The notes below the pieces were generated by a model, which saw nothing but the letters and a program-made list of their open reading frames with translations, was not told the DNA's origin and searched no databases. DNA of 57,939 bases, from positions 1 to 57,939 of the forward strand of contig JAJEDY010000019.1 in NCBI GenBank assembly GCA_022821275.1. Reading direction: 5' to 3'. The DNA comes from Candidatus Latescibacterota bacterium (GTDB lineage Bacteria; Latescibacterota; UBA2968). Of this stretch, positions 1 to 17,687 are shown piece by piece (position 1 is the stretch's first letter; every line of letters begins with the position of its first letter). A program made the position numbers and the translations under genes.

Positions 1-1505
1 TTGTAGTGGAATACCTCTGAGAATAGAGCGTCGCGGCGCAATTTATCCAATTCGGTCTTAAGTTTCAATCCTTGTTGTAGTGGAATACCTCTGAGAATAG
101 ACCTTTCTGCGCTATAAAAATGAGAAATTGGGGTTTCAATCCTTGTTGTAGTGGAATACCTCTGAGAATATTTTTCCCCGCGCTTTTTCATTTGCTCTTT
201 AGGTTGTTTCAATCCTTGTTGTAGTGGAATACCTCTGAGAATTCGCCATCGCGTCGACATTTGGAAATGATTGGCAAATCCGGTTTCAATCCTTGTTGTA
301 GTGGAATACCTCTGAGAATGTGTGCAGCACGACGAAATCATCATTCCCGAATTTGTGTTTCAATCCTTGTTGTAGTGGAATACCTCTGAGAATTCGGGAG
401 GGATTAATTGGGGTATGTATCGGGAGAGGATGTTTCAATCCTTGTTGTAGTGGAATACCTCTGAGAATTATCGAGAGACTTTTCGGGATTAGCCGAACAG
501 GAGCGGTTTCAATCCTTGTTGTAGTGGAATACCTCTGAGAATTGCTGGCGATCGGGTACACCGAGGACGACATCGTGACGTTTCAATCCTTGTTGTAGTG
601 GAATACCTCTGAGAATAAGGGTGGCGTTTTTGAGGCGAGATTTATTCAGATGCCGTTTCAATCCTTGTTGTAGTGGAATACCTCTGAGAATCCCGACAGC
701 ACCGCCTAAGATTTTCCGGCGGTACTTTGGGGTTTCAATCCTTGTTGTAGTGGAATACCTCTGAGAATTGTAAAATTTTGATGCCATTGTTGCATACTGT
801 TCGCCGTTTCAATCCTTGTTGTAGTGGAATACCTCTGAGAATGAATTATCCCGGACGCCGCTCGAATCCCATGATTTGTGTTTCAATCCTTGTTGTAGTG
901 GAATACCTCTGAGAATCATATCGGTTGCCGCGGGGTAGCGTTTGAGCGTATAGTTTCAATCCTTGTTGTAGTGGAATACCTCTGAGAATATGGCGTCCAC
1001 ATTGATCGGGAGAGAGTGGAGGCAATGTTTCAATCCTTGTTGTAGTGGAATACCTCTGAGAATTTCAGACGGCTTTTGCATCTTGATGAGGGCATTCGTG
1101 TTTCAATCCTTGTTGTAGTGGAATACCTCTGAGAATTTCCGCCGTTCTGTTGTCCGCCTCGAAATTGCCGCAGGTTTCAATCCTTGTTGTAGTGGAATAC
1201 CTCTGAGAATAATGTATTTGCGGGCAGTTTTGTTGAACATGATTTTTGGTTTCAATCCTTGTTGTAGTGGAATACCTCTGAGAATCGAGATTGCGGAAAT
1301 TACAGGCGTGAGCGACCGCACCATGTTTCAATCCTTGTTGTAGTGGAATACCTCTGAGAATGACGGCGTCGGCCAATTCGTTGCGCCCTCGCTCGAGTTT
1401 CAATCCTTGTTGTAGTGGAATACCTCTGAGAATGACCGAGAAAACTGTCGTCGCTGCCCTTCAAAAGGGTTTCAATCCTTGTTGTAGTGGAATACCTCTG
1501 AGAAT
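1..1505 (-). CRISPR. Type I-B CRISPR array, 20 spacers, truncated at left edge
   Basis: There are twenty full 37-nt repeats (plus-strand form GTTTCAATCC...CTCTGAGAAT) starting at 62, 133, 206, 283, 357, 432, 506, 580, 655, 732, 806, 880, 953, 1027, 1100, 1174, 1249, 1325, 1397 and 1469. A 24-nt partial repeat lies at 1-24. The 20 spacers are 34-40 nt long, mostly 36-38. All full repeats read identical. On the minus strand each repeat ends in GGATTGAAAC, so Cas6 cleavage would leave the usual ATTGAAAC 5' handle. This sets transcription leftward, with the leader and newest spacers at 1505. Several translated frames cross the array, but they only encode the repeat. Confidence 0.99.
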
Positions 1506-1676
1506 CGCATTTTATGTATATCGTTTGAAACGACAATAGGTTACGCGAATTGACTGATGGACAAAATCTCGGTTTGATACGTCTTTTTCACTTCTAAACA
1601 TAGACATTTTTCTCTCCTTTGCAGAATGGAATTTCCCCAACATATTGATTTTTAATGGATTATGCCATTTTCATTC
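1506..1676 (-). promoter_or_regulatory. CRISPR leader between cas4 and array
   Basis: This non-coding stretch separates the cas4 stop from the first repeat and lies upstream of the array in the predicted transcription direction, so it should hold the array promoter and integration signals. It is AT-rich with T-tracts. Sixteen bases from the first repeat is a near-perfect palindrome at 1521-1533 (TCGTTT-G-AAACGA), which could be a protein-binding site for leader-end integration. I could not pick a convincing -35/-10 pair. Confidence 0.75.
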
Positions 1677-2273
1677 TTATACGCAAATATTTTTGTAGCA
1701 ACAGTCGCTACATTTGGCACGATGAGGTGTCTTTTTGGGCAGTCGCCCGGTTTGGATGATGTCGAGAATTTCAGCCACAATTTCTTGTGCGGTGATTTCT
1801 TCTGCCTCTCCTATCGGGACTTCTGCCAGGCGACTTCCACCGCGGATGTAGGCAATATATCCACGGGACACGGGCTTTTGATAGGCTTCGCGAGCCAGCA
1901 GTCCGTAGAGTATGATTTGGATGCGATGGGTTTTAAAAGCGTGCTCGCGATAGGGTGAATATTTGTAATCCAGAGGCGCGAGACTGCCATCTTCCAAAGT
2001 CAAGACTTCATCTACAACCCCGCGCACGCCGAGACTGGGCGATGCCAGGTACACATTGAGGTCGCGGTCAACAACGCCGATTTTCTTGCGTAGATAAAAT
2101 CGATTCTCTTGTTCGCGGCGTTTGTGGACTTCGCGGCCTTTGAGCACTTTGAAACGACGGTCTTCAAACTGCGGGATGTTGAGCACATTCATGTAATAGG
2201 TGAAACGCGGACAATAGATATGCTCAATCACCTCCGACGGTGTGATCATGATGGTTGTTTCGGTATCGCTCAC
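1677..2273 (-). CDS. cas4: CRISPR-associated exonuclease Cas4
   Basis: This 198-aa Cas4 belongs to the RecB-like PD-(D/E)XK family with an Fe-S cluster, which trims prespacers and helps choose the PAM before Cas1-Cas2 integration. The cluster cysteines are C21 (in the YCPR motif) and three near the C-terminus (C188, C191 or C192, C197). The nuclease core has APLDYKYSP, giving the D-x-K part of the active site. It is the last cas gene before the leader and its ATG overlaps the cas2 stop by 4 nt, so it is translationally coupled. Length is normal for the family. Confidence 0.96.
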   Translation of the reverse strand: MSDTETTIMITPSEVIEHIYCPRFTYYMNVLNIPQFEDRRFKVLKGREVHKRREQENRFYLRKKIGVVDRDLNVYLASPSLGVRGVVDEVLTLEDGSLAPLDYKYSPYREHAFKTHRIQIILYGLLAREAYQKPVSRGYIAYIRGGSRLAEVPIGEAEEITAQEIVAEILDIIQTGRLPKKTPHRAKCSDCCYKNICV

Positions 2274-2575
2274 AGGAACATGCTCCTCACATCATCCGTA
2301 ACCATCTTCTGGTCAAATGCCTGGCCTTGTAAGATTACTTTGCGAAAGTCCATCGCGCACATGGGGAAGATGTACACACTGTCGGTTTCCTCATCAATAT
2401 GGTCTTCAATACGCATTGAAAGTTCGTCCAGACGGTTATGTTTCACTGTGCCGAGAAACACGGATTTTTGAACGCGATAGAGTCCGGCTTCTTTACAGGC
2501 TTTGACCACATGCCGACGGCTTTTGTCGTTGGAGATGTCGTAGAGTATCCAGGTGAGCGATTCATCGGATTTCAT
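2270..2575 (-). CDS. cas2: CRISPR-associated endoribonuclease/adaptation protein Cas2
   Basis: This 101-aa Cas2 has a ferredoxin-like fold and forms the central dimer of the Cas1-Cas2 integrase. The N-terminus shows the family strand ILYDISNDKSRR with conserved D13, followed by LYRVQKSVFLG. The start is the ATG at 2575, because longer in-frame starts run back into cas1 and lack Cas2 similarity. It lies 7 nt after cas1 and overlaps cas4, as expected of a single adaptation cassette. Confidence 0.97.
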   Translation of the reverse strand: MKSDESLTWILYDISNDKSRRHVVKACKEAGLYRVQKSVFLGTVKHNRLDELSMRIEDHIDEETDSVYIFPMCAMDFRKVILQGQAFDQKMVTDDVRSMFL

Positions 2576-2582
2576 GGGCTTA

Positions 2583-3596
2583 TTACTCCTGTTGTGTGTC
2601 TTGTGGCAGCAGATCGTTTGCAATGCGGTGTAGATCGAATTGGATGCTGTCTCGCCGCGTGATGTTGCGCCCCCGATAGCGAATGGCTGTGTCGAGATAG
2701 TCGGTAAATGCCTGGATGAGTACGGCTTTGCCATCTTTGTTCAGGGTGAGGCCATTTTTTAATTTGTCGAATTGGTCTTGTTTAATTTTTCGCGCTGAAA
2801 AGAGACTGAGAACGGTTTCATCTGCCCAGATGCGATATTGTTCGATGAGGTCAAAAACGAGAGACGGCTTATTATAGTGATCGGTGTGGATAAAGCCGAT
2901 ATAGGGATCGAGTCCCGAGAGCAAGCAGGCGCGTTCAACGATGCCGTAGAGCATGCCGTAGTTGTAATTGAGCAAGCAGTTGAAAGGGTCTTTGCCCGGG
3001 TTCCGGCTGCGTCCTTCAAAGCGGTGATGGACGGGTAATAGCAGGGATACTGCCGCCCAATAGGTGCGCCCAGCGCGACCTTCAAGACCGAGCAAGCTCT
3101 GGCGCATGGTGTCGATACCGCTTGTCTCCGTATCAGCACATGTATTGCTCGCGAGGTCCTGCGTTTGCTCTTTGAGGGTTTTTAGACTGCCGATGGCCTC
3201 GGTAAGTGGTGCTGAAAGCCGTGTGCGACGGTCGCGCATGCGCGTGAGCAATGCGATCTGATTGTCGAATTTGCGCTCAATCCAACCGAGGGCGAGTTGC
3301 ACGCCGAGATCGGTTTGCGCCGCTACGAGTTGCTGCCGCCGAATGGCTGTTGTAGAACCCGGTCGTCCATGCCACACGCGCCCAAAGGGGTCGCCGTATT
3401 TGTCGAGAAAGAGGATGTCGATATTTTTCTCCACGGCAAGTTGCACCGCATCTGACGAAAACGCCGCACCCGTTGAGATGAGAATAGAGCGCACTTTGCG
3501 AGCGGAAATTTCAGTCGATTGATCCTTCACCTTGACCTGAAACAATTCCCCCCGCCGACTCAAATACGCGCCATAAGTGTTGAGTACGAGTTGCAT
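2583..3596 (-). CDS. cas1: CRISPR-associated integrase Cas1
   Basis: This 337-aa Cas1 is the metal-dependent integrase that inserts new spacers at the leader end. The catalytic triad is visible: E172 in GLEGRAGRTYW, H237 in GFIHTDHYNKPS, and D249 in LVFDLIEQYR. The chosen ATG at 3596 begins MQLVLNTYG, the usual family start; the open frame continues 20 codons further upstream into a degenerate CRISPR-like element. A 125-nt gap separates it from cas3, the largest gap inside the cas3-to-cas4 block. Confidence 0.97.
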   Translation of the reverse strand: MQLVLNTYGAYLSRRGELFQVKVKDQSTEISARKVRSILISTGAAFSSDAVQLAVEKNIDILFLDKYGDPFGRVWHGRPGSTTAIRRQQLVAAQTDLGVQLALGWIERKFDNQIALLTRMRDRRTRLSAPLTEAIGSLKTLKEQTQDLASNTCADTETSGIDTMRQSLLGLEGRAGRTYWAAVSLLLPVHHRFEGRSRNPGKDPFNCLLNYNYGMLYGIVERACLLSGLDPYIGFIHTDHYNKPSLVFDLIEQYRIWADETVLSLFSARKIKQDQFDKLKNGLTLNKDGKAVLIQAFTDYLDTAIRYRGRNITRRDSIQFDLHRIANDLLPQDTQQE

Positions 3597-3601
3597 TTTA
3601 T

Positions 3602-3711
3602 GTTTAGTCCTTGTTCTGTTGGAGTGCCTTTTCAAAGGCCGTCCTGCTCTCCACACGCATGTGGATGAACCGAGTTTCCAGCCTTATTTTTATGGATGTA
3701 ATTCTCGAAAT
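3602..3711 (-). ncRNA. Degenerate mini-CRISPR (CreR/CreA-like) between cas3 and cas1
   Basis: Two degraded copies of the array repeat fill the cas3-cas1 gap in the array's orientation. The upstream copy (3674-3711) keeps GTTTC, CCTT, TGGA and TTCT..AAT, about 24 of 37 positions with a 1-nt insertion. The downstream copy (3602-3637) keeps GTTT, TCCTTGTT, TGGA and CCT, about 25 of 37 with a 1-nt deletion. The 36 nt between them (3638-3673) match the normal spacer length. On the minus strand the predicted handle is CTGGAAAC and the guide begins TCGGTTCATCC. The guide contains a 6-bp hairpin (TCCACA-CGCA-TGTGGA, 3650-3665). This layout matches known Cas-regulating or antitoxin guide RNAs; function here is inferred. 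Confidence 0.6.
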
Positions 3712-3721
3712 ATAAGTGACA

Positions 3722-6031
3722 TCAAAACATTCTCATAGCTTCGTGTTCTGCAAACCGCCCTCCCAAATGATCGTCATATTCCATTTCACAAAATACGATG
3801 TCCCCATTTTCTGGATCTCTGAATTCATTCTCTTTAACATACCACGCGGGCATTTTGAGTTCATACAGACGTCTGTGTCTGGGATTTTCGGTCTCTAAGA
3901 CTTCATTGCGAAAATTGAGAGGAATAACACTTACCTGAATATATTTTTCTAAACGGGTTGTACGCTGTTCATCATCTTTTATACGATCTAATAGGCCACG
4001 AAAACGTCTTTGGTCATAATCAACCAGTTCGATGGAATCCTTAAAATCTTGATGGACATCTATATGCTGGTTTTCGTACACTTCTTCAACAATATCCAAA
4101 AGTTCTTGTTCTGTAATATCATGGCCGTGATATTTCGAGAAAATATCGAAAGAACGTTCCAAAAGTCGTTCTTCGGGTTTTTGTTCTGTACGTGTGTCAT
4201 CAAAATAGATGCGATCTGATCCTTGTCCTGGCTGAAAAATGATCACTTGACCATTTCGCTCTCGTTTGCGGTTGATTCGGCCTGCGCGTTGTGCTAATGC
4301 ATCTGGTGGCGCACACTCCGTAAATAAAATGTCGAAATCGATATCTAAAGCGACTTCAACTACTTGCGTTGCAATAACCAGAGAAGGAATTTCTTCAAAA
4401 ATTTTCTTTTCCTTTTTTTTCCGATCTCTCAAGATAAACTTTGAGTGATAACAAATGGGATCAAAGTCTGCCAACGCTTGTGCAATTTCCTGACAACGTG
4501 CAACTGTATTTACTACAACGAGAACACGTTTGCCTTTTTCAATATGGTCGCTAATTTTTTGAAGATGATTCAACAAATTGTCATCAACAGTTTGATAACG
4601 ACTGCGTGCAGCTTGAAGCAATTCCTGATCGCGGATGATTTCTACTGGTGCAGATTTCTCAAGTAAAGATTGGAACATCTCAACCAGAGAACTGGGAAAT
4701 GTTGCGCTCATAATCATAAACCTTGCTCCAGTCCCTGCAAGTTGCTCAATCGCTTTGCATATCAGGCCCGTAGTATAGGGATCGTAGGAATGCACCTCAT
4801 CCAACACGATTGCAGAATCCTGGGCCGCAAATGTTTTTAACGGCCAACGACCACTATGAAAAAGGGTGGTTAGTAATTGATCCACTGTACCTACTGTAAC
4901 GGGAGGAAAAAAGTGGCGATTGAATAACAAATTTCCGTTTCCGTACAGCTTAGATTCTCGTCCTGTACTCTCTTGATCTCCTTCTTTACGCAAAATGAGA
5001 TCGGCCGTTGAATGCGTCAAGCCAACGTGATGGTTATGAGTCGAGAAGAATTCTCCCATACGGTCATGAAGGCTGTTGGCTGTCACCATAGTGGGAAGCA
5101 AGTATAAAATTTTGCTCACATCCCTTTGCTTGATTTGGTTGAGTGCCCACAAAAGGGCAGCTTCTGTTTTTCCACTTCCCGTAGGTGCGACAGCAATAAT
5201 GTGTCCCTTTGTTTTTCCACAATTTTCCTGAAAGGCTCTAAATCCAGCATAAGATCCTCCGTCCTCTTCAACCTTTTTTTGCAAATATGGTGCGACCAAA
5301 TCAGGTCCAACCAGAACATTTGTCGCATAATCTGGATCATTCGACGACGCACACCAATCAGCCGTCATAAGCAATCCCTTCATCAGAACGAATAACTCGC
5401 GTGCAGATGAATAGTCAGAAACGTATTTATGTAGTTCCTTTGCGAAATTGCATACGGACTGCTTGTGTGCAACTTGAAAGCATTTTTCAAAATCAATTTT
5501 AGGGAGCGGAACGCCATAATCATCAAAGATTTTTTGTGCAACGCGCTTTCCCTCCGCTAAACTGCCCGGTTCCCATTTCAGGCTTTCGGGATTATTTCGC
5601 TCGCGTTCAAAACGACTGAGGTCTGCATCAACTGTTTTATGATGTCCCAAAACGGCCATGGCTTCCAAAGGAATATGCGGATTTTGCTTGAGCAAGACAC
5701 CTGTTTCTTTGTTGAGGCTTAAAATAGCAGACCTTACGAAAGCAACTGATGCATATTCATGCCTAAAATTGGCAACCATAGCGCGATGGCGTTCAGCATT
5801 CGACACAGCACGCATCATGCGTTGAAAGTTGGCGGACAACTTGCCCATATCGTGAAGCGCGACTGTGAGTAGAGACCGGATAAGAAACCGATCTCTATCC
5901 ACTTGATGGCGTTGACAGATGCGTTCAATGAGTGCCGCATGTCTCTCTATTAAATTTTTCCAGGCCAACCAAACCTTCCAGACATGCTGTTCATAAGATT
6001 CATCAGGACGACACTTGGCGAGAAAAATCAT
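3722..6031 (-). CDS. cas3: CRISPR-associated helicase/nuclease Cas3 (HD-DExH fusion)
   Basis: This 769-aa Cas3 unwinds and degrades DNA after Cascade recognition. An N-terminal HD nuclease shows ALHDMGKL (H60-D61), HEYAS and LGHHKT. The helicase follows with Walker A APTGSGKTEAA (about residue 283), the DEVH box (about 408), an SATFP motif, and QRAGRINR in the second RecA-like lobe. The HD domain is fused at the N-terminus, the common arrangement. Its ATG overlaps the cas5 stop by 4 nt (ATGA), so it belongs to the interference operon. No catalytic loss is apparent. Confidence 0.96.
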   Translation of the reverse strand: MIFLAKCRPDESYEQHVWKVWLAWKNLIERHAALIERICQRHQVDRDRFLIRSLLTVALHDMGKLSANFQRMMRAVSNAERHRAMVANFRHEYASVAFVRSAILSLNKETGVLLKQNPHIPLEAMAVLGHHKTVDADLSRFERERNNPESLKWEPGSLAEGKRVAQKIFDDYGVPLPKIDFEKCFQVAHKQSVCNFAKELHKYVSDYSSARELFVLMKGLLMTADWCASSNDPDYATNVLVGPDLVAPYLQKKVEEDGGSYAGFRAFQENCGKTKGHIIAVAPTGSGKTEAALLWALNQIKQRDVSKILYLLPTMVTANSLHDRMGEFFSTHNHHVGLTHSTADLILRKEGDQESTGRESKLYGNGNLLFNRHFFPPVTVGTVDQLLTTLFHSGRWPLKTFAAQDSAIVLDEVHSYDPYTTGLICKAIEQLAGTGARFMIMSATFPSSLVEMFQSLLEKSAPVEIIRDQELLQAARSRYQTVDDNLLNHLQKISDHIEKGKRVLVVVNTVARCQEIAQALADFDPICYHSKFILRDRKKKEKKIFEEIPSLVIATQVVEVALDIDFDILFTECAPPDALAQRAGRINRKRERNGQVIIFQPGQGSDRIYFDDTRTEQKPEERLLERSFDIFSKYHGHDITEQELLDIVEEVYENQHIDVHQDFKDSIELVDYDQRRFRGLLDRIKDDEQRTTRLEKYIQVSVIPLNFRNEVLETENPRHRRLYELKMPAWYVKENEFRDPENGDIVFCEMEYDDHLGGRFAEHEAMRMF

Positions 6032-6726
6032 CTCAATACCACCTTATAGTCATTGATAACAAATCCATCAACCGGCTCTGAAAGCGAGATTTGATTGCCC
6101 ACAAATGTAAAAGGTTCGCGTGTTTGTACGGTCCGTTTATCTTCATCGAAAGAAAACGATACAGGCAGATGCGCCGTTGATGCCGGGCGAATCTTTTGGG
6201 TAATAGGCAAGTCCAAAATAGATTCATTAGGCTGATATTGGAGTTCACCAGGCACCAGACAGTTCTCCAAACTTTCTAAGGGACTGGGATCAGCCTCCAA
6301 AACTTCGATATTTCGAAGGTGAATCAAACTGTCGCTATGCCCGGCGGTAAGTGCATATACCGGATCATGAAACCCATTAGCAATCACATCAGCAGATTCT
6401 TTGGACTGCGTGCCGTAAACAATCAGACATGTCAAATCCACTCGATATTCTCGAATGAGAACATCCGAAATGGTTTCTTTTGATTTCACCTTGCGATATT
6501 TCCACAAATCTCGAAATTCTCCGCGATCCTGTCCCGCAACGCCAATGGCTATGCCATTTTCTTCAATATAGCTTTGGGCAGACTCCATATCCAGACCAAG
6601 AGCAGCACCGAGCAAACCCACACAGGTAGTATATGGTGGCAAGGCCAGAGTCTTATGGAATGTATGGGTTTCCGAAACTCTAAATGACGCGGTTTCAGCA
6701 TACATCTCAAGGGCGACGAGAAACAT
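6028..6726 (-). CDS. cas5: CRISPR-associated protein Cas5 (Cas5t, type I-B)
   Basis: This 232-aa Cas5 subunit of Cascade should cap the crRNA 5' handle. The N-terminus FLVALEMYAETASFRV followed by PPYTTCVGLLGAALG is the RAMP-type Cas5 signature, closest in feel to the Cas5t (Tneap) group. It starts 3 nt after cas7 ends and overlaps cas3, consistent with one polycistronic mRNA. It has no Cas5d-type processing role here because a separate cas6 is present. Confidence 0.93.
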   Translation of the reverse strand: MFLVALEMYAETASFRVSETHTFHKTLALPPYTTCVGLLGAALGLDMESAQSYIEENGIAIGVAGQDRGEFRDLWKYRKVKSKETISDVLIREYRVDLTCLIVYGTQSKESADVIANGFHDPVYALTAGHSDSLIHLRNIEVLEADPSPLESLENCLVPGELQYQPNESILDLPITQKIRPASTAHLPVSFSFDEDKRTVQTREPFTFVGNQISLSEPVDGFVINDYKVVLR

Positions 6727-6729
6727 AGC

Positions 6730-7632
6730 TTATGCTCCATTCTGGCCGTAACAAGACTGAACCCACTCTTTAATTTGCGAAAAAGCATCACCAACAGTTT
6801 TGGTGTCGTCGGGAGTACCTTGAAATAAACCCGTACGGGAACCAAACACTGATTCCAGCACAACATTTTTATGATCTGCCAATGCCTCTTCAAGCGTCGT
6901 CCCGCTCAATGTTCTGCCTTGTACCTGAACGGATTCGAGAAAGATTGGTGCTTTAACAGTCGTAATAGCCGCAGCGACAAATTTTGGACTCAGATCAGCC
7001 AGAAAGCGGCTTTGACGCCCAGAACTCCACAAATTTTGCAACGCATCAAGCAAGGCTTCTACGCGCTCAGATTTCTCCCTATCATCTATATCATCCTCAA
7101 ATCCCTCACCAGAACCAATCCGGTCCAATTCGACCAAAATTGTACCGCGATAAAGTCCACCGTGTATTTCAGTTTCAAAAATATTGGGATTGCCGCCAGC
7201 TTTTACACTCATGTAATTGGTTCCAAAGTCCAGATCACCCTGGTAGGCATCTTGGGCGACCAAAGGTGATACGCGTACAGAGGATGTTCTTTTGCGCGTT
7301 CCAGATTTGTCCGCATCCATGTAACCAAACAAATCGTCGTCCAAATAATCAGTAGGGTTGCACTGGGTCGTAGCAGCACCTTTGGATTCTTTAGCAGCGA
7401 CGCCCTCGGAAAGCGTATGGCCCAGAGTAGCAAGTTGATCGCGCAAAGCACGGCGAATAGCCTGGGATGAGACATAGGGAAATTCTTTCACGCCATTATC
7501 CGTCTCGCGTGTGAGTTTCTTAATACTGGAAATATTGTCTGCTTCTTTATCACTGCCATTCAAACTGGCAAATGATACGGGTGTGAGATAGGTAATTGTA
7601 ATCGCCTTGGCTTTGGAAAAATCGGTGTTCAT
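6730..7632 (-). CDS. cas7: Cascade backbone Cas7 (Cst2/DevR family)
   Basis: This 300-aa backbone subunit polymerises along the crRNA spacer. It shows the Cas7/Cst2/DevR pattern: an ITYLTPVSFASLNG strand near the N-terminus, then the glycine-rich region YVSSQAIRRALRDQL, and later DFGTNYMSVKAGGNPNIFE. A strong Shine-Dalgarno (AAGGAGG) precedes the ATG, matching the high copy number needed for this subunit. It lies between cas8 and cas5 with gaps of 12 and 3 nt. The Cst2-type Cas7 supports the I-B Tneap-like assignment. Confidence 0.94.
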   Translation of the reverse strand: MNTDFSKAKAITITYLTPVSFASLNGSDKEADNISSIKKLTRETDNGVKEFPYVSSQAIRRALRDQLATLGHTLSEGVAAKESKGAATTQCNPTDYLDDDLFGYMDADKSGTRKRTSSVRVSPLVAQDAYQGDLDFGTNYMSVKAGGNPNIFETEIHGGLYRGTILVELDRIGSGEGFEDDIDDREKSERVEALLDALQNLWSSGRQSRFLADLSPKFVAAAITTVKAPIFLESVQVQGRTLSGTTLEEALADHKNVVLESVFGSRTGLFQGTPDDTKTVGDAFSQIKEWVQSCYGQNGA

Positions 7633-7644
7633 AACAACCTCCTT

Positions 7645-9381
7645 TTAATTGGTTTGAGCTGTGGTTTCTCGTTTGGGAGCTGTGCCAGCATTAAAAGCGT
7701 TTAATCCGGCCAAAAGACAAAAACCTTTGAATTCTTCAAAATTTGCATCGGTCAAATGGCCTTCATAAACAGCGGGTGGAATGACAACATTGAATCGAAA
7801 TTGAAGTCGATTCAATTCATTGAGAAAATCTGAAAGTTTCCGACATTTTCTGAGCGAAAAAAGATTGCCCTTTTTACCGCTTTCTTTTGCAACGGCGGCC
7901 CCGATTCGTCTACCTAATGCGACAGCGGCGTCTAATGCTTCTTTCTCCATTTTGTGGTCTCCTTTTAAAAGGGTTTCGTACTGTGTCGTAAATTCAACTA
8001 AGGGAGCGATATATCGGTTTTCAGACCGGTTGACATGAAAAGCAAAGGTTTCGGCTTGTTTGAGTATGGACTGTTTTGTAAGAACAGCATCGAGCATACG
8101 ATTTCGTTTTAGAGATTTGTTGTCATCCTTGACCGCTGTGAAATCCAGCATATTTTGGACAACAGGCTTCCAACCCATTCCTTTTTTTTGTAAATGCCGA
8201 AAGAGTCGAAATAGATATGCCAAATCATCATAAAGCCTGACCTGTGTTGGCATTTGGATTTGTCCTTTTTGCTCAGTAGAGACAATAAAAAACGAAAGAG
8301 GAGCATTTTTTAAGGCAAAATCAAACATTTCCTCTTGGAATGCTTCTTCATCTTCGAAAGGATCCTCCTCATTCAATTCATCGTCGGTCGTAAGTTCTGC
8401 ATAAACGCGATGGAGGAACGCAAACGCCATTTCCGAGGGATGTGTAAAATAACCGCCAAGCTGCTGGTCTATATTGCGATAAAAATTGGGTTCCCATTCT
8501 GTAATTCCAAGCAAACGGTTATACACATCATTCATTTTGTACAAGTTGGGCGCGAAGGGGAAAAACATGTGCATATGATCACCTGTTTGAATATAGAAAC
8601 CGTTGACTGGCACAAATTTTCCGATGAAAGAACAACGCCAACACACTTGAGTTGCTCCTCGCGTCGTAGAAAAAAATGAGAGCACCCCCGACTCGCCTGT
8701 CATAAAAGGGAAAATTGTTTGATTCATTTTTTCCATTTTAGAGGATGTACCACCGCATAAAAAGCAAGGACTTGTTTTGCGTGTGGACTTGCGATTGGGT
8801 TCTTGAACCTGAATGATCACCTTCGGACGCACGCGGTTGGGTTCATCGACCAACATGCCTGCCGGTGGGCCTGGTTTTAGTTCTTTTAGTTTTAAGAACT
8901 CATCTAAGCGATCTTGAAGGTCAGCGTAATCGTCAGGTAATTTTCCTGGCGTTTTATCTGCCCATTTGACCTGCTCACCTGCTGGACGAGGTGCTTTATC
9001 ATAAATAAAGGCAGCTATCCCTCGGGCCTTGCGTTTTGGGAAGGATTCAAAAACCCCTTCTGCATTTAAAAAAAAGTTATGGGATGTCATCTCTTCCCAT
9101 TGTTTTTGTGATGAAAGGTCGTAATAGTGCTTAATCAAACAATCATTATATGCCGTTTCTAACAAACCTTGCACAGCATCCGCATCACCCGATATTACCA
9201 ATTGATCGGCCTCAAGTTTTGTACTGGTTTGAAACTTCGCGTCTAAATGTGTCCTTGGATTATCAACACCTCGTTGTGGTTCCTGGTGAATATCTCCGAT
9301 GATACATCTATAAAGTCCCAAGACACCAGAATCATTCCAGAATTGATTTAACCGTGGAAAGGTTACTGTAATGTCGTTCAT
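7645..9381 (-). CDS. cas8: Cascade large subunit Cas8 (CXXC-CXXC, Cst1-like)
   Basis: This 578-aa large subunit would recognise the PAM and recruit Cas3. The family is very divergent. The supporting motif is a zinc-finger-like pair, CFLCGG at about residue 204 and CWRC at about 245, typical of the CXXC-CXXC Cas8 (Cst1/Cas8a1-like) families found with Cst2-type Cas7 and Cas5t. The N-terminus GLYRCIIGDI fits Cst1-type proteins. It lies 3 nt after cas6 and 12 nt before cas7. The exact Cas8 subfamily needs a profile search. Confidence 0.88.
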   Translation of the reverse strand: MNDITVTFPRLNQFWNDSGVLGLYRCIIGDIHQEPQRGVDNPRTHLDAKFQTSTKLEADQLVISGDADAVQGLLETAYNDCLIKHYYDLSSQKQWEEMTSHNFFLNAEGVFESFPKRKARGIAAFIYDKAPRPAGEQVKWADKTPGKLPDDYADLQDRLDEFLKLKELKPGPPAGMLVDEPNRVRPKVIIQVQEPNRKSTRKTSPCFLCGGTSSKMEKMNQTIFPFMTGESGVLSFFSTTRGATQVCWRCSFIGKFVPVNGFYIQTGDHMHMFFPFAPNLYKMNDVYNRLLGITEWEPNFYRNIDQQLGGYFTHPSEMAFAFLHRVYAELTTDDELNEEDPFEDEEAFQEEMFDFALKNAPLSFFIVSTEQKGQIQMPTQVRLYDDLAYLFRLFRHLQKKGMGWKPVVQNMLDFTAVKDDNKSLKRNRMLDAVLTKQSILKQAETFAFHVNRSENRYIAPLVEFTTQYETLLKGDHKMEKEALDAAVALGRRIGAAVAKESGKKGNLFSLRKCRKLSDFLNELNRLQFRFNVVIPPAVYEGHLTDANFEEFKGFCLLAGLNAFNAGTAPKRETTAQTN

Positions 9382-9384
9382 AGA

Positions 9385-10044
9385 TTACCCCTTGATCTGA
9401 CGAATAGTGCCGAAACCTCTGGCACTTTGCTTGCCTATACCCCACAATGGCGGAAGTTGAAAATTAACGGTAAATGTGCCCATAAATCCGGTTAGCATCA
9501 CACCAGACTTGATTTCAATGGATTTTGGCGTCTCAATATAGAGATTCGCTTTGAGCCTATCCGTAATGGTGAGACGAACAGATTTGCACAGTGAAATCAA
9601 ATTGCCAATCAAAATGCGGCTGAGTAAATCTTGTCGCTTAGCTTTATTGACTAATTTGTTGTAGCGTTGATGGTTTGCTTGGTTAAGCGCGAGCCAGGGA
9701 CTCAAGAATTGATATTTTACAGGTTTTTCAGTCGTACCAAATGCAACGGTCTCGGTATTCCGATTTTGCTCAAGCACATTCAAAGTCTGCCCATTTAAAT
9801 TGAGTGTATCAATTTCAGGTAGTGCCCGTACGAGAAACGACCCGCTTTCCAACCCCATCACGCGCCCTACACCACCAATTGTTTTGTATTGAATCAGCGG
9901 ATGTTGATATAACAGACCACTTGGACCATGGTGATGAAACTCTACCCGATTTTGATACCGCTGTCCAAAAAAGCCACGCAAGAGCCGTGCGTCATTTTCT
10001 TGTAATGAATGATCGCAGCAAAGTGTCAGTGTTGTAAGTTCCAT
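9385..10044 (-). CDS. cas6: crRNA-processing endoribonuclease Cas6
   Basis: This 219-aa Cas6 cuts the repeat RNA to leave the 8-nt handle. The C-terminal glycine-rich loop LWGIGKQSARGFGTI is the hallmark. Histidines in VEFHHHGPSG and polar residues in the N-terminal half are candidate catalytic residues. The start is the ATG at 10044 (MELTTLTL), preceded by AAGGA 8 nt upstream; a longer frame to 10140 runs through a degenerate CRISPR-like leader and is unlikely. It is the first true cas gene, 97 nt after a sigma-factor-like gene. Its Shine-Dalgarno lies inside a repeat-like sequence. Confidence 0.93.
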   Translation of the reverse strand: MELTTLTLCCDHSLQENDARLLRGFFGQRYQNRVEFHHHGPSGLLYQHPLIQYKTIGGVGRVMGLESGSFLVRALPEIDTLNLNGQTLNVLEQNRNTETVAFGTTEKPVKYQFLSPWLALNQANHQRYNKLVNKAKRQDLLSRILIGNLISLCKSVRLTITDRLKANLYIETPKSIEIKSGVMLTGFMGTFTVNFQLPPLWGIGKQSARGFGTIRQIKG

Positions 10045-10045
10045 A

Positions 10046-10138
10046 ATTATTATCCTTGTTTTGATGGAATGATGAGGCAAGAACCAGATGGCGAAAGCCA
10101 ACATTTCAATTCTTTTTATAAGGAATGGCTCTTTTTGC
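10046..10138 (-). ncRNA. Degenerate mini-CRISPR in the cas6 5' leader
   Basis: The 97-nt gap between the sigma-like gene and cas6 is almost filled by two array-repeat relics in the array's orientation. The upstream relic (10103-10138) matches 23 of the first 31 repeat positions with one deletion; it keeps TTTCAAT, GGAAT and CTCT, giving a handle ATTGAAAT. The downstream relic (10046-10082) matches 16 of 19 over 10052-10070 (ATCCTTGTT.T..TGGAAT). The predicted guide starts GTTGGCTTTCGCC; it is 20 nt if whole repeats are counted, or 32 nt between conserved cores. The ACAAGGAT of the downstream relic also supplies the cas6 Shine-Dalgarno. This suggests a CreR-like autoregulatory guide or a Cas6 feedback site; function is inferred. 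Confidence 0.6.
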
Positions 10139-10141
10139 ACA

Positions 10142-10705
10142 TTAATTTCTTAACCTCCGTTGTAATGTTTGCATCAATTTTTGAAACTGTTTGTGTACAG
10201 CGGAACTGCTCTTCCCTAAATCTTTTCCCAACTCTTTAAATGTGGCGCAGTGACCATCAATGAGACCGTATCGTCTGCTCAACAAATCTTGTTCTTGTTG
10301 CGGTAAATCACGGAGAATATTATTGACATCTATTCGCAAATGAATATCACTGTGCCGACCAATAATATCTTGATCGCGAATATACTGGAATGGTTGGGCG
10401 AAATTTCTATTTCTATGTCCATACTCTGTTATTTTAATTGGACCTGACAGATCACGCATTTCGCGATAAATAGCTTTTTTGATATAAGGTCTAACATAAG
10501 CCAAAAAAGGGACATTTTTTTGAGGGTCATATCTAAGGGCAACTTCAAATGCTGCTGTTAAACCTGCTTGATGGATATCTGCAATGTCGTCGGCAGAAAA
10601 TACTTGATAATTGATCAAATTGGATATTTGTCTTCTCAGAGGGGCTTCATGTTCTTGAATGAGTTGGGTTGCTTTTTGGTGACGAATTTCGGGAAAATTT
10701 TTCAT
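10142..10705 (-). CDS. Sigma-70-family factor-like protein heading the cas operon
   Basis: This 187-aa protein looks like a small sigma-70 factor. Residues 35-90 resemble region 2 (DIADIHQAGLTAAFEVALRYDP, then FLAYVRPYIKKAIYREMRDL). The C-terminus has a region 4-like helix-turn-helix (LPQQEQDLLSRRYG, then TFKELGKDLGKSSSAVHKQ). It lacks a long N-terminal region 1. A good Shine-Dalgarno (GAGGTG) precedes the ATG. It lies 97 nt upstream of cas6 in the same direction, so it could drive transcription of the cas genes or array. It could also be an unrelated sporulation/flagellar-type factor that moved in; context favours a CRISPR role. Confidence 0.8.
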   Translation of the reverse strand: MKNFPEIRHQKATQLIQEHEAPLRRQISNLINYQVFSADDIADIHQAGLTAAFEVALRYDPQKNVPFLAYVRPYIKKAIYREMRDLSGPIKITEYGHRNRNFAQPFQYIRDQDIIGRHSDIHLRIDVNNILRDLPQQEQDLLSRRYGLIDGHCATFKELGKDLGKSSSAVHKQFQKLMQTLQRRLRN

Positions 10706-10987
10706 GCATCACCTCATATTGAAATTTTTAATAGTAAGATGCGAAATCAAACTAAATAGTTTCTGGATATATTATGCTTGAAATTCCACAATTTATCAAC
10801 CTATTTTTTGATTGCAGGGTCATTTTTATTTTTCTATGCGGTTTTTCAGACATTATTGTTCCCCAAAAGTTGCTTTTTATTCTGAAGTTGGCTATATTTT
10901 GTTCAGCGACCAGAATGGGCCGGTGCCAACCGACTCGGGATAATGTCCTTGGCCGCTACTTTTTTTTAGTGCCTTCATCCGCATTTT
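10706..10987. other. Intergenic control region upstream of the sigma/cas operon
   Basis: This 282-bp AT-rich gap lies between the WYL gene's stop and the sigma-like start. It should hold the operon promoter. I saw AT-rich hexamers but no clear consensus pair. Two short matches to the predicted cas6-leader guide occur: GTTGGCT at 10887-10893 on the plus strand and GTTGGC on the minus strand at about 10926-10931. A T8 run near 10965 follows a GGCC-flanked segment and might end WYL transcription. An open frame at 10774-11088 on the plus strand overlaps the WYL gene and shows no protein features. Confidence 0.4.
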
Positions 10988-11962
10988 TTATTTTTCATAC
11001 ATCCTCCCTGCCGCAATCATATCTCTTGCAACCACCTTTCTTAAATCCTCTGGTTCTATCACCTCGCAATCTGCGCCCCAGCCTCTGATCCATGGTTTCA
11101 TCTCCAGCGTGTGGCTTACAGTTAATGTCATGAGACAGCCGCCATCTGGCAGGTCGTCTATGGTATCGACACAGGGCCAATCCGATTCCCGCACGCGGTA
11201 TGCCACATTGGGCGAGAAGCGGAGTTTGACGACAATGCGCTCATCGCCGCCCATCACGCCCCATGCTTGCGTCAGATAATCGTAGGGATCGAAATTGTCC
11301 CGAATTTCATAAGATAAGTCGAGGATTGCGACCTGTTGCACGCGCTCGATTTTGAACTCGCGGATGTCTCGGCGCAAATGGTCAAATCCGATTACATAAC
11401 AGGCATATCCGACGGGCGATGGCTCGATAAAATACGGGTCAAAGACGCGGTCGGTGGTTTCATCGGTGTTCGGATTGTAATACGTCAATCGCACCTGTTT
11501 GCGTTCAGACCACGCGCGGGTAAAGGTCTCCAAAACGCTGATGTACTCGCGATGCGGTCTGCGCTTGTGCGTGGCTTCGGCGGTTCGGGTGATGTGTTGA
11601 CCGATTGATTCGGGAAGCGCGCTGGCGAGTTTTTCAAGTGCAGAGACGACATGGGGATTGTGTTTGTCGCTGTGCGCTGAGAGCAGGCGGGCTGAGAGAT
11701 ATAGTGCCAGCGATTCGTGCAAGTTCACACGCACAGATGTGATATAGCGGTCTTTGTGCATGCCGAATCTGCCATCGCGTTCCCAGATGGGCACGTTGAG
11801 TTTGGAGAGGGAGTCGATATCGCGATAGATGGTGCTGCGATGACAGCCCAGTTTTTTGCCCAATTCTAAAGCCGTAAACCCCTGAGCAGATTGAAATAAG
11901 ATGCGACCCAGCTCGATGAGCCGCTCAGAACGCTTAAATTGTTGTGTATTGTTATTTGACAT
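10988..11962 (-). CDS. WYL-domain transcriptional regulator (HTH-WYL-WCX)
   Basis: This 324-aa regulator has an N-terminal winged HTH (FTALELGKKLGCHRSTIYRDIDSLSKL, residues about 25-55), a central WYL domain (VRLTYYNPNTDETTDRVFDP ... YFIEPSPVGYACYVIG), and a C-terminal WCX-like region. WYL domains bind nucleotides or nucleic acids and often control phage-defence genes. The start at 11962 follows a GGAG Shine-Dalgarno; a longer start at 12001 is less likely. An inverted repeat (TTGCGA...TCGCAA, 12005-12010 and 12030-12035) lies just upstream and could be its own operator. It lies directly upstream of the sigma/cas operon, so control of CRISPR is plausible. Confidence 0.88.
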   Translation of the reverse strand: MSNNNTQQFKRSERLIELGRILFQSAQGFTALELGKKLGCHRSTIYRDIDSLSKLNVPIWERDGRFGMHKDRYITSVRVNLHESLALYLSARLLSAHSDKHNPHVVSALEKLASALPESIGQHITRTAEATHKRRPHREYISVLETFTRAWSERKQVRLTYYNPNTDETTDRVFDPYFIEPSPVGYACYVIGFDHLRRDIREFKIERVQQVAILDLSYEIRDNFDPYDYLTQAWGVMGGDERIVVKLRFSPNVAYRVRESDWPCVDTIDDLPDGGCLMTLTVSHTLEMKPWIRGWGADCEVIEPEDLRKVVARDMIAAGRMYEK

Positions 11963-12166
11963 AATAATCTCCGCAGATAGTATAATGGGAGCGTGTTCCA
12001 CATGTTGCGACAGGTTGAAAAAAATGTGATCGCAATTTTATGTTTCCCAAAAAATAAGAGCCGGGGGACGGGGTATCCCACCGGCTAATGAGAATAGAGA
12101 TTAAATTGAGTGACGTACAGAAATCAAAAAGGACATACAATAAAATTTATTATCTAAAACCATTAA

Positions 12167-12266
12167 GCACAGCGCGTAAGTCCGTCTCGTAGCGGACATC
12201 CTTATCGCATTCCAACTGTGAAGGCCACAGCATAGTGTACTAACACAGAAACGATTTGCGCTGTGC
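12167..12266. ncRNA. Candidate structured RNA with closed multi-branch fold
   Basis: The 440-bp gap between the WYL start and the nucleotidyltransferase stop has no gene but folds well on paper. A perfect 9-bp closing stem pairs GCACAGCGC (12167-12175) with GCGCTGTGC (12258-12266). Inside are three hairpins: GTCCG/CGGAC (12180-12184 with 12193-12197, flanked by a GTAA/TTAT helix), CTGTG/CACAG (12216-12220 with 12226-12230) and GTGT/ACAC (12235-12238 with 12243-12246). No known family is recognised. The strand is unclear. On the plus strand a T6 run follows 25 nt later. Confidence 0.35.
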
Positions 12267-13185: not shown

Positions 13186-13275
13186 TTAGACCTCAACCCC
13201 CAATTCACGGTTTGCGACGCTCTGGTAGTGGTTCAGCGAGCCATCTATTACTTCTGTCATCGGAACTTGGTGTCC
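13186..13275 (-). pseudogene. Remnant 3' end, duplicated at 17505 (possible oxidoreductase tail)
   Basis: The last 24 codons of this frame encode MTEVIDGSLNHYQSVANREL plus GVEV and a stop. They are nearly identical in DNA and protein to the end of the fragment at 17505-17585. No intact gene of this type is present. In the other copy the tail is joined to the N-terminus of a Gfo/Idh/MocA oxidoreductase, so both are probably leftovers of such genes. The frame continues into the neighbouring glycosidase-like gene, where it is only a shadow. Confidence 0.5.
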
Positions 13276-17504: not shown

Positions 17505-17687
17505 TTAGACTTCAACCCTCAGTTCCCGGTTTGCGACGCTCTGGTAGTGGTTTAGTGAGCCATCTATTACTTCTGCCATGGTGACGAGGCGTCCGGGTTC
17601 AAAATCTTCCAGGACGCGATAGCCGCGCAGGTGACGGCGACCCATTCCACCACATCCTGCCAGGGCAAGTTGATGACATTGAGGCAT
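17505..17687 (-). pseudogene. Gfo/Idh/MocA oxidoreductase fragment with fused tail
   Basis: The 60-codon frame begins LALAGCGGMGRRHLRGYRVL, the NAD(P)-binding GxGxxG N-terminus of Gfo/Idh/MocA dehydrogenases. After residue 36 it jumps to MAEVIDGSLNHYQSVANREL plus RVEV and a stop. The full family is about 330-400 aa, so roughly 300 internal residues are missing. A good Shine-Dalgarno (AGGAGG) remains. The tail is duplicated at 13186. This is most simply an internal deletion joining the two ends of one gene. Confidence 0.65.

Follow-up and report, generated by a model that had tools for sequence, protein, structure and literature searches.

Does the degenerate mini-CRISPR between cas3 and cas1 of a Latescibacterota type I-B operon encode a guide RNA, and if so, what would that RNA be directed at? 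Many genomes hold several CRISPR systems, whose mutual tolerance or exclusion is little understood. We assign a probability of roughly 0.48 to the reading that the cas3-cas1 gap is a CreR-like I-B psi-crRNA gene with a guide directed at type I-E repeats. The features that suggest it can be read from the DNA itself, namely the anatomy of the element, the I-E identity of its guide, the pattern of pairing, the conservation in a sister genome and a reciprocal unit in an I-E array.

Two repeat pairs in a type I-B operon

The window, by which we mean the whole stretch of 57,939 nt that was analysed, corresponds to contig C54 of a 5.66-Mb Latescibacterota genome (G000). A complete type I-B operon runs along its minus strand, in the order sigma-like gene, cas6b, cas8b, cas7b, cas5b, cas3, cas1, cas2, cas4 and array (Table 1), and a further 13 I-B repeats of the genome are found at G000:C58. 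The I-B repeat is 37 nt long in the crRNA sense (ATTCTCAGAGGTATTCCACTACAACAAGGATTGAAAC), its array handle is ATTGAAAC, and the array spacers measure about 34-40 nt. A Cas6 cut at AAGG/A was inferred from the type of I-B repeat. Directly upstream of the cas operon lie a small sigma-70-like gene (10142-10705), which seems to share a promoter with the operon, and a gene for a WYL-domain regulator (10988-11965). Elsewhere in the window, a 90-nt direct repeat is present at 13186-13275 and 17505-17594, with copies 86% identical and 4.3 kb apart.

Table 1. Positions of the type I-B genes, the two elements and related sequences in the window
Feature	Position	Strand	Remarks
I-B CRISPR array	1..1506	-	20 whole repeats and a part repeat at the contig edge
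cas4 and cas2	1677..2572	-
cas1	2583..3596	-	TIGR00287
Element 2 psiR2, degenerate I-B repeat	3602..3637	-	ends ...AACAAGGACTAAAC
AAGGA in element 2 psiR2	3608..3612	-	sole SD-like motif for cas1; predicted Cas6 cut within
Guide 2 (psi-spacer), 36 nt	3638..3673	-	TCGGTTCATCCACATGCGTGTGGAGAGCAGGACGGC
Degenerate type I-E repeat (guide 2 positions 3-30)	3644..3671	-	antisense to I-E crRNA strand
Element 2 psiR1, degenerate I-B repeat	3674..3710	-	ends ...AAGGCTGGAAAC
Predicted 5' handle (last 8 nt of element 2 psiR1)		-	CTGGAAAC; L037 counterpart ATGGAAAC
cas3 (I-B)	3722..6031	-	TIGR01587 and PADLOC Cas3b
cas5b, cas7b, cas8b, cas6b (interference and processing genes)	6028..10044	-
Element 1 psiR2, 25 nt	10046..10070	-	doubles as cas6 SD (AAGGA)
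Element 1 guide (guide 1)	10071..10102	-	GTTGGCTTTCGCCATCTGGTTCTTGCCTCATC
Element 1 psiR1	10103..10139	-	ends AAGAATTGAAAT
Probable CreR target of element 1	10741..10752	-	GTTTGATTTCGC; TTTA precedes (PAM TTA)
Promoter-like TTGATA-17-CATAAT upstream of sigma-like gene and cas operon	10771..10799	-	consensus match only

Within cas3-cas1-cas2-cas4, the 125 nt between cas3 and cas1 form the sole sizeable gap, and element 2 lies inside it. When the 37-nt I-B repeat is compared with the minus strand beyond the array, the best matches fall in this gap and in the gap before cas6, which holds element 1. The psiR1 of the cas3-cas1 gap is the weakest of the four pseudo-repeats (score 24) and on its own is no better than some chance matches, so the case for the elements rests on the repeat pairs; the two-repeat score of each gap was reached by none of 2000 dinucleotide shuffles. 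The initial annotation had proposed this arrangement of pseudo-repeat, guide and pseudo-repeat, with a guide as long as the array spacers, and both points agree with our analysis, since 36 nt falls in the spacer range. The AAGG motif and AAAC end that it noted are likewise kept in both window pseudo-repeats; in the sister genome G009, unlike the window, psiR2 ends in AAGG.

Degenerate cognate repeats around a spacer-like guide inside a cas locus are the architecture of CreR. Element 2 differs from an ordinary CRISPR array in its degenerate repeats and in the lack of a viral, phage or plasmid match to its guide or gap. Guide 2 gave no match in IMG/VR with the kink positions left free, the cas3-cas1 gap gave none among phages and plasmids, and a looser guide 2 pattern in viral sequence matched only I-E repeats, in two viral contigs. 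We therefore rejected guide 2 as a virus spacer.

Element 1 has the look of a standard CreR. CreR are crRNA-like RNAs that autorepress cas genes in type I and V-A systems (Liu et al. 2023, as reviewed in PMC12737573), and in the outline given by that review they fit element 1 and its counterpart in the related locus L039 well. The pre-cas6 guide of L039 (L039 7563) matches promoter-proximal DNA of its own locus at L039:7470, with TTTA before the match and mismatches only at positions 6 and 12 of the first 18 nt, and by these features it is a textbook CreR. Its window counterpart, guide 1, matches DNA at minus 10752, 18 nt after the -10 box of the promoter-like sequence, with 9/10 seed positions paired and, among the first 12 positions, mismatches at 4 and 6. 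The geometry is as at L039:7470 and the match is weaker, which makes element 1 a probable CreR aimed at its own cas promoter. These CreR-like matches suggest that the I-B lineage probably uses psi-crRNAs. In another locus, L152, an I-B-like pseudo-repeat pair lies upstream of cas6 at about 12,090-12,170 on the strand opposite cas6, and is possibly a CreR or CreA.

Guide 2 and the type I-E repeat

When the seed of guide 2 was searched for in G000 and G009, an array repeat on G009 contig C406 matched the guide. This repeat, GGTACATCCCCACGCTTGTGGGGAGATT, is of type I-E and adjoins cse1 and other I-E genes. The similarity of guide 2 to the I-E repeat, which the initial annotation had not noticed, was reached by none of 1000 shuffles; guide 2 is the top match in the window with both strands searched, and the sole I-E-repeat match in the 5.66-Mb genome. 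A search of 386 genomes at 3 mismatches turned up no exact donor repeat. Despite this similarity, guide 2 is distinct from a type I-E repeat proper, which is 28-29 nt long with a CCCCAC...GTGGGG stem and sits in an array accompanied by I-E cas genes. Guide 2 occurs once, its stem is broken at position 12, and neither Cse1 nor an I-E array was found in its genome.

Type I effectors flip out every sixth guide base, and the mismatches between guide 2 and I-E repeats follow this periodicity. Across the genus, the main repeat of each I-E array pairs with the seed (positions 2-11); relative to those of G009, G008 and G002, the seed has no mismatch except at kink position 6. With U-G wobbles counted as paired, the window guide is unpaired with the G008-type repeat only at positions 12, 18, 24 and 30, and for the L037 guide, from G009, set against the repeat of that genome, the unpaired positions are 6, 12, 18 and 30 only. 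The chance of mismatches at kink positions only is about 2e-4 per comparison under a uniform, naive null, and the two comparisons are not independent. Positions 6 and 18 of the I-E repeat vary naturally; in the invariant stem alone, both non-wobble changes (12 and 24) fall at kink positions, with a chance of about 1/66 (~0.015). At guide positions 28-29 the window has CA, which corresponds to the GAACAT repeats of G008, G002 and G003. G009 instead has AT there, in line with the derived GAGATT form of its own repeat; its old trailer repeats still read GAACAT. The correspondence resembles covariation of guide and target, though it involves just two positions.

We propose that the cas operon transcript would be cut by Cas6b in psiR1 and psiR2, and that the product, the handle CTGGAAAC followed by guide 2, would be loaded into I-B Cascade. 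Pairing of guide positions 2-29 with I-E repeats, in the 5+1 manner typical of type I effectors, would then bring Cascade to them. The bound molecule could be I-E pre-crRNA, to which the guide is antisense and for which no PAM would be needed; the predicted duplex has an energy of about -41 kcal/mol in silico. Alternatively, Cascade could bind array DNA where a PAM happens to precede an I-E repeat. The presumed PAM, TTA, precedes 0/34 I-E repeats in G009, 1/58 in G008 and 2/17 in G002, a rarity that weakens DNA targeting. A resident I-E system might be dampened in this way, or an incoming one opposed. Because the AAGG/A cut would fall in the sole SD-like motif before cas1, guide production may also lower cas1-2-4 translation, and that of cas6 at element 1. 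Against I-E targeting by guide 2, the window genome offers no resident target at present, and G008 has I-E, yet only a solo pseudo-repeat before cas1.

Conservation and a reciprocal unit

Locus L037 of the sister genome G009 (Cas8 93% identical) has element 2 at the same place, with guide nucleotides 1-23 identical. In L038 of G008 (Cas8 82%), the cas3-cas1 gap is about 45 nt and holds one solo pseudo-repeat; in L039 and L040 (57-59%), cas3 and cas1 overlap or abut and element 2 is absent. The full element is thus found in two genomes only, and the mini-CRISPR proposed by the initial annotation is conserved in the nearest relative. Between the window and L037, psiR1 and guide 1-23 show 4/71 differences, compared to 182/869 (21%) at fourfold sites (p=3e-4), while the guide 3' part and the psiR2 5' part differ heavily and AACAAGGACTAA of psiR2 is kept. 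A slow psiR1 and guide 1-23 with a drifting 3' half is the pattern expected for a handle plus seed. In three other genomes (L150, L151 and L152 of G005, G007 and G004), nearly the same cas1-cas2-cas4 module and repeats accompany a different I-B effector (Csh2/TM1802 type), and a DUF3800 gene and a duplicated cas1 start are inserted between cas3 and cas1; this is a module swap at the cas3-cas1 junction.

The converse arrangement exists on the I-E side. At the trailer end of the I-E array of G009 (L086 631-720, G009:C406), degenerate I-E repeats enclose a 33-nt spacer, ACAGAGGTCTTCCAATAAAACAAGGATTGAAAT, that is an I-B repeat (score 50, next best 26). An orthologous remnant in G003 (L094 1500-1590, G003:C36) keeps the I-B-repeat spacer with one change, so the unit is common to two species although G003 has lost its I-E effector. 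Guide 2 and the trailer spacer each run antisense to the pre-crRNA of the opposite system. By eye, the trailer spacer shows no 6n mismatch pattern against I-B repeats; the G009 assembly lacks its I-B array. Tentatively, co-resident I-B and I-E systems may carry guides made of each other's repeats, for RNA-guided cross-control or mutual exclusion. If true, such guides would act on every spacer of the other system at once. Just past the end of an I-E array in G002 (L092 1640-1780, G002:C16), we also observed a decayed cas1 fragment with a repeat-like stretch.

Alternative readings and known systems

The main and serious rival of a guide against I-E is that element 2 is a fossil. I-B adaptation would once have captured a spacer from a co-resident I-E array, and the ectopic mini-array or array remnant would since have decayed into a functionless sequence. 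Consistent with this, the window genome lost or never had I-E, the repeats of element 2 are degenerate, the I-E trailer unit could be a mirror capture, and the solo repeat in G008 looks like loss through repeat recombination. However, fourfold sites change about four times as fast as the handle and guide 1-23, the substitutions lie at kink positions, and positions 28-29 follow the repeat variant. Capture also appears rare: none of the roughly 215 I-B array spacers is an I-E repeat, which led us to reject cross-captured repeats as a common event, and in I-E arrays the trailer unit is the only case. A self-targeting spacer at full strength, moreover, would be harmful. We regard a fossil as unlikely.

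An improbable alternative is control in cis, by which the pseudo-repeats would mark sites for Cas6 in mRNA leaders. In this view psiR2 carries the SD of cas1 and, at the other gap, of cas6; once Cas6 bound or cut at AAGG/A, the SD would be lost and translation of cas6 and cas1-2-4 limited, and the sequence between the pseudo-repeats would matter little. In the window, L037 and L038, AAGGA of the repeat precedes the cas1 and cas6 ATG by 6-11 nt; the solo repeat of G008 (L038 13921-13964) is near-canonical and ends exactly at the cas1 ATG; and AACAAGGACTAA persists while the remaining psiR2 drifts. Such control leaves the conservation of guide 1-23 and its I-E identity unexplained. Moreover, any RBS at this place will come to resemble the repeat, given that the repeat motif ACAAGGA looks like an SD. 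It is also compatible with an I-E-directed guide, whose excision would bring loss of the SD as a side effect.

We give very little weight to the idea that guide 2 is a functional I-E pseudo-repeat, acting within the I-B operon as a Cas6e or I-E integrase site or as a structural hairpin. Both species retain a 6-bp hairpin (U-A in the window, U-G in G009), which fits a retained repeat as well as a guide and to that extent counts against the guide reading. The sequence is nevertheless antisense to the operon transcript, is broken at invariant stem position 12 (C to A), has I-B repeats set exactly at guide spacing on either side, and lies in a genome without Cse1.

That guide 2 acts as an ordinary CreR or CreTA RNA on a nearby cas or toxin promoter, as the CreA- and CreR-like anatomy (PMC9458426; PMC12737573, in outline) and the behaviour of element 1 would allow, is mostly refuted and extremely unlikely: a scan of the window and relatives gave no seed-plus-PAM match for guide 2 at its own cas promoter or any other window promoter, the four seed sites common to G000 and G009 all lie inside predicted reading frames, no toxin gene or RNA was identified, and this guide-based scan gave no match at the promoter of an adjacent toxin RNA. 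The same scan gives no support to the suggestion in the initial annotation that guide 2 could tune adaptation, as no match lies near cas1. Its further suggestion of dual-guide control of one I-B locus holds in that two elements occupy the operon, but one is a probable CreR and the other appears aimed at another CRISPR type. We also considered a CreR in the I-E loci; the single off-array I-E-like match in G008 sits within a coding gene and was set aside as chance.

Element 2 shares features with several known systems. Like CreR as outlined in PMC12737573, it has degenerate repeats around a guide inside a cas locus and a conserved handle and seed, and it would presumably work through the effector of its host without cleavage; CreR, in that outline, targets its own cas promoter, whereas guide 2 matches repeats of another CRISPR type. 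CreA of CreTA (PMC9458426) likewise has a psiR1-psiS-psiR2 order in a type I-B locus, strong repeat degeneration and partial complementarity, but guide 2 matches no creT toxin promoter. Anti-cas spacers in the orphan I-F (CRISPR4) arrays of E. coli (Almendros et al. 2016, described in PMC8616872) are CRISPR guides directed at a CRISPR-Cas system, as guide 2 would be; as described there, they match cas genes of the cognate I-F type from an ordinary small array, in contrast to an I-B psi-guide that matches an I-E repeat, with I-E absent in G000 and present in G009 beside the same element. Viral mini-CRISPR arrays (PMC6858448) similarly consist of one guide and two repeats outside a main array, but element 2 is chromosomal, lies inside a cas operon and has no viral match. 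A literature search, with most subscription papers beyond its reach, brought up no earlier description of a guide that consists of another system's repeat.

These sequences suggest a guide RNA carried by one CRISPR system and directed against another. This would offer a reason for degenerate mini-CRISPRs besides cas autorepression or toxin control, and ectopic pseudo-repeats with a foreign CRISPR repeat as guide would be the place to seek others. A guide built of another system's repeat would be a single RNA able to act on that system's whole memory.
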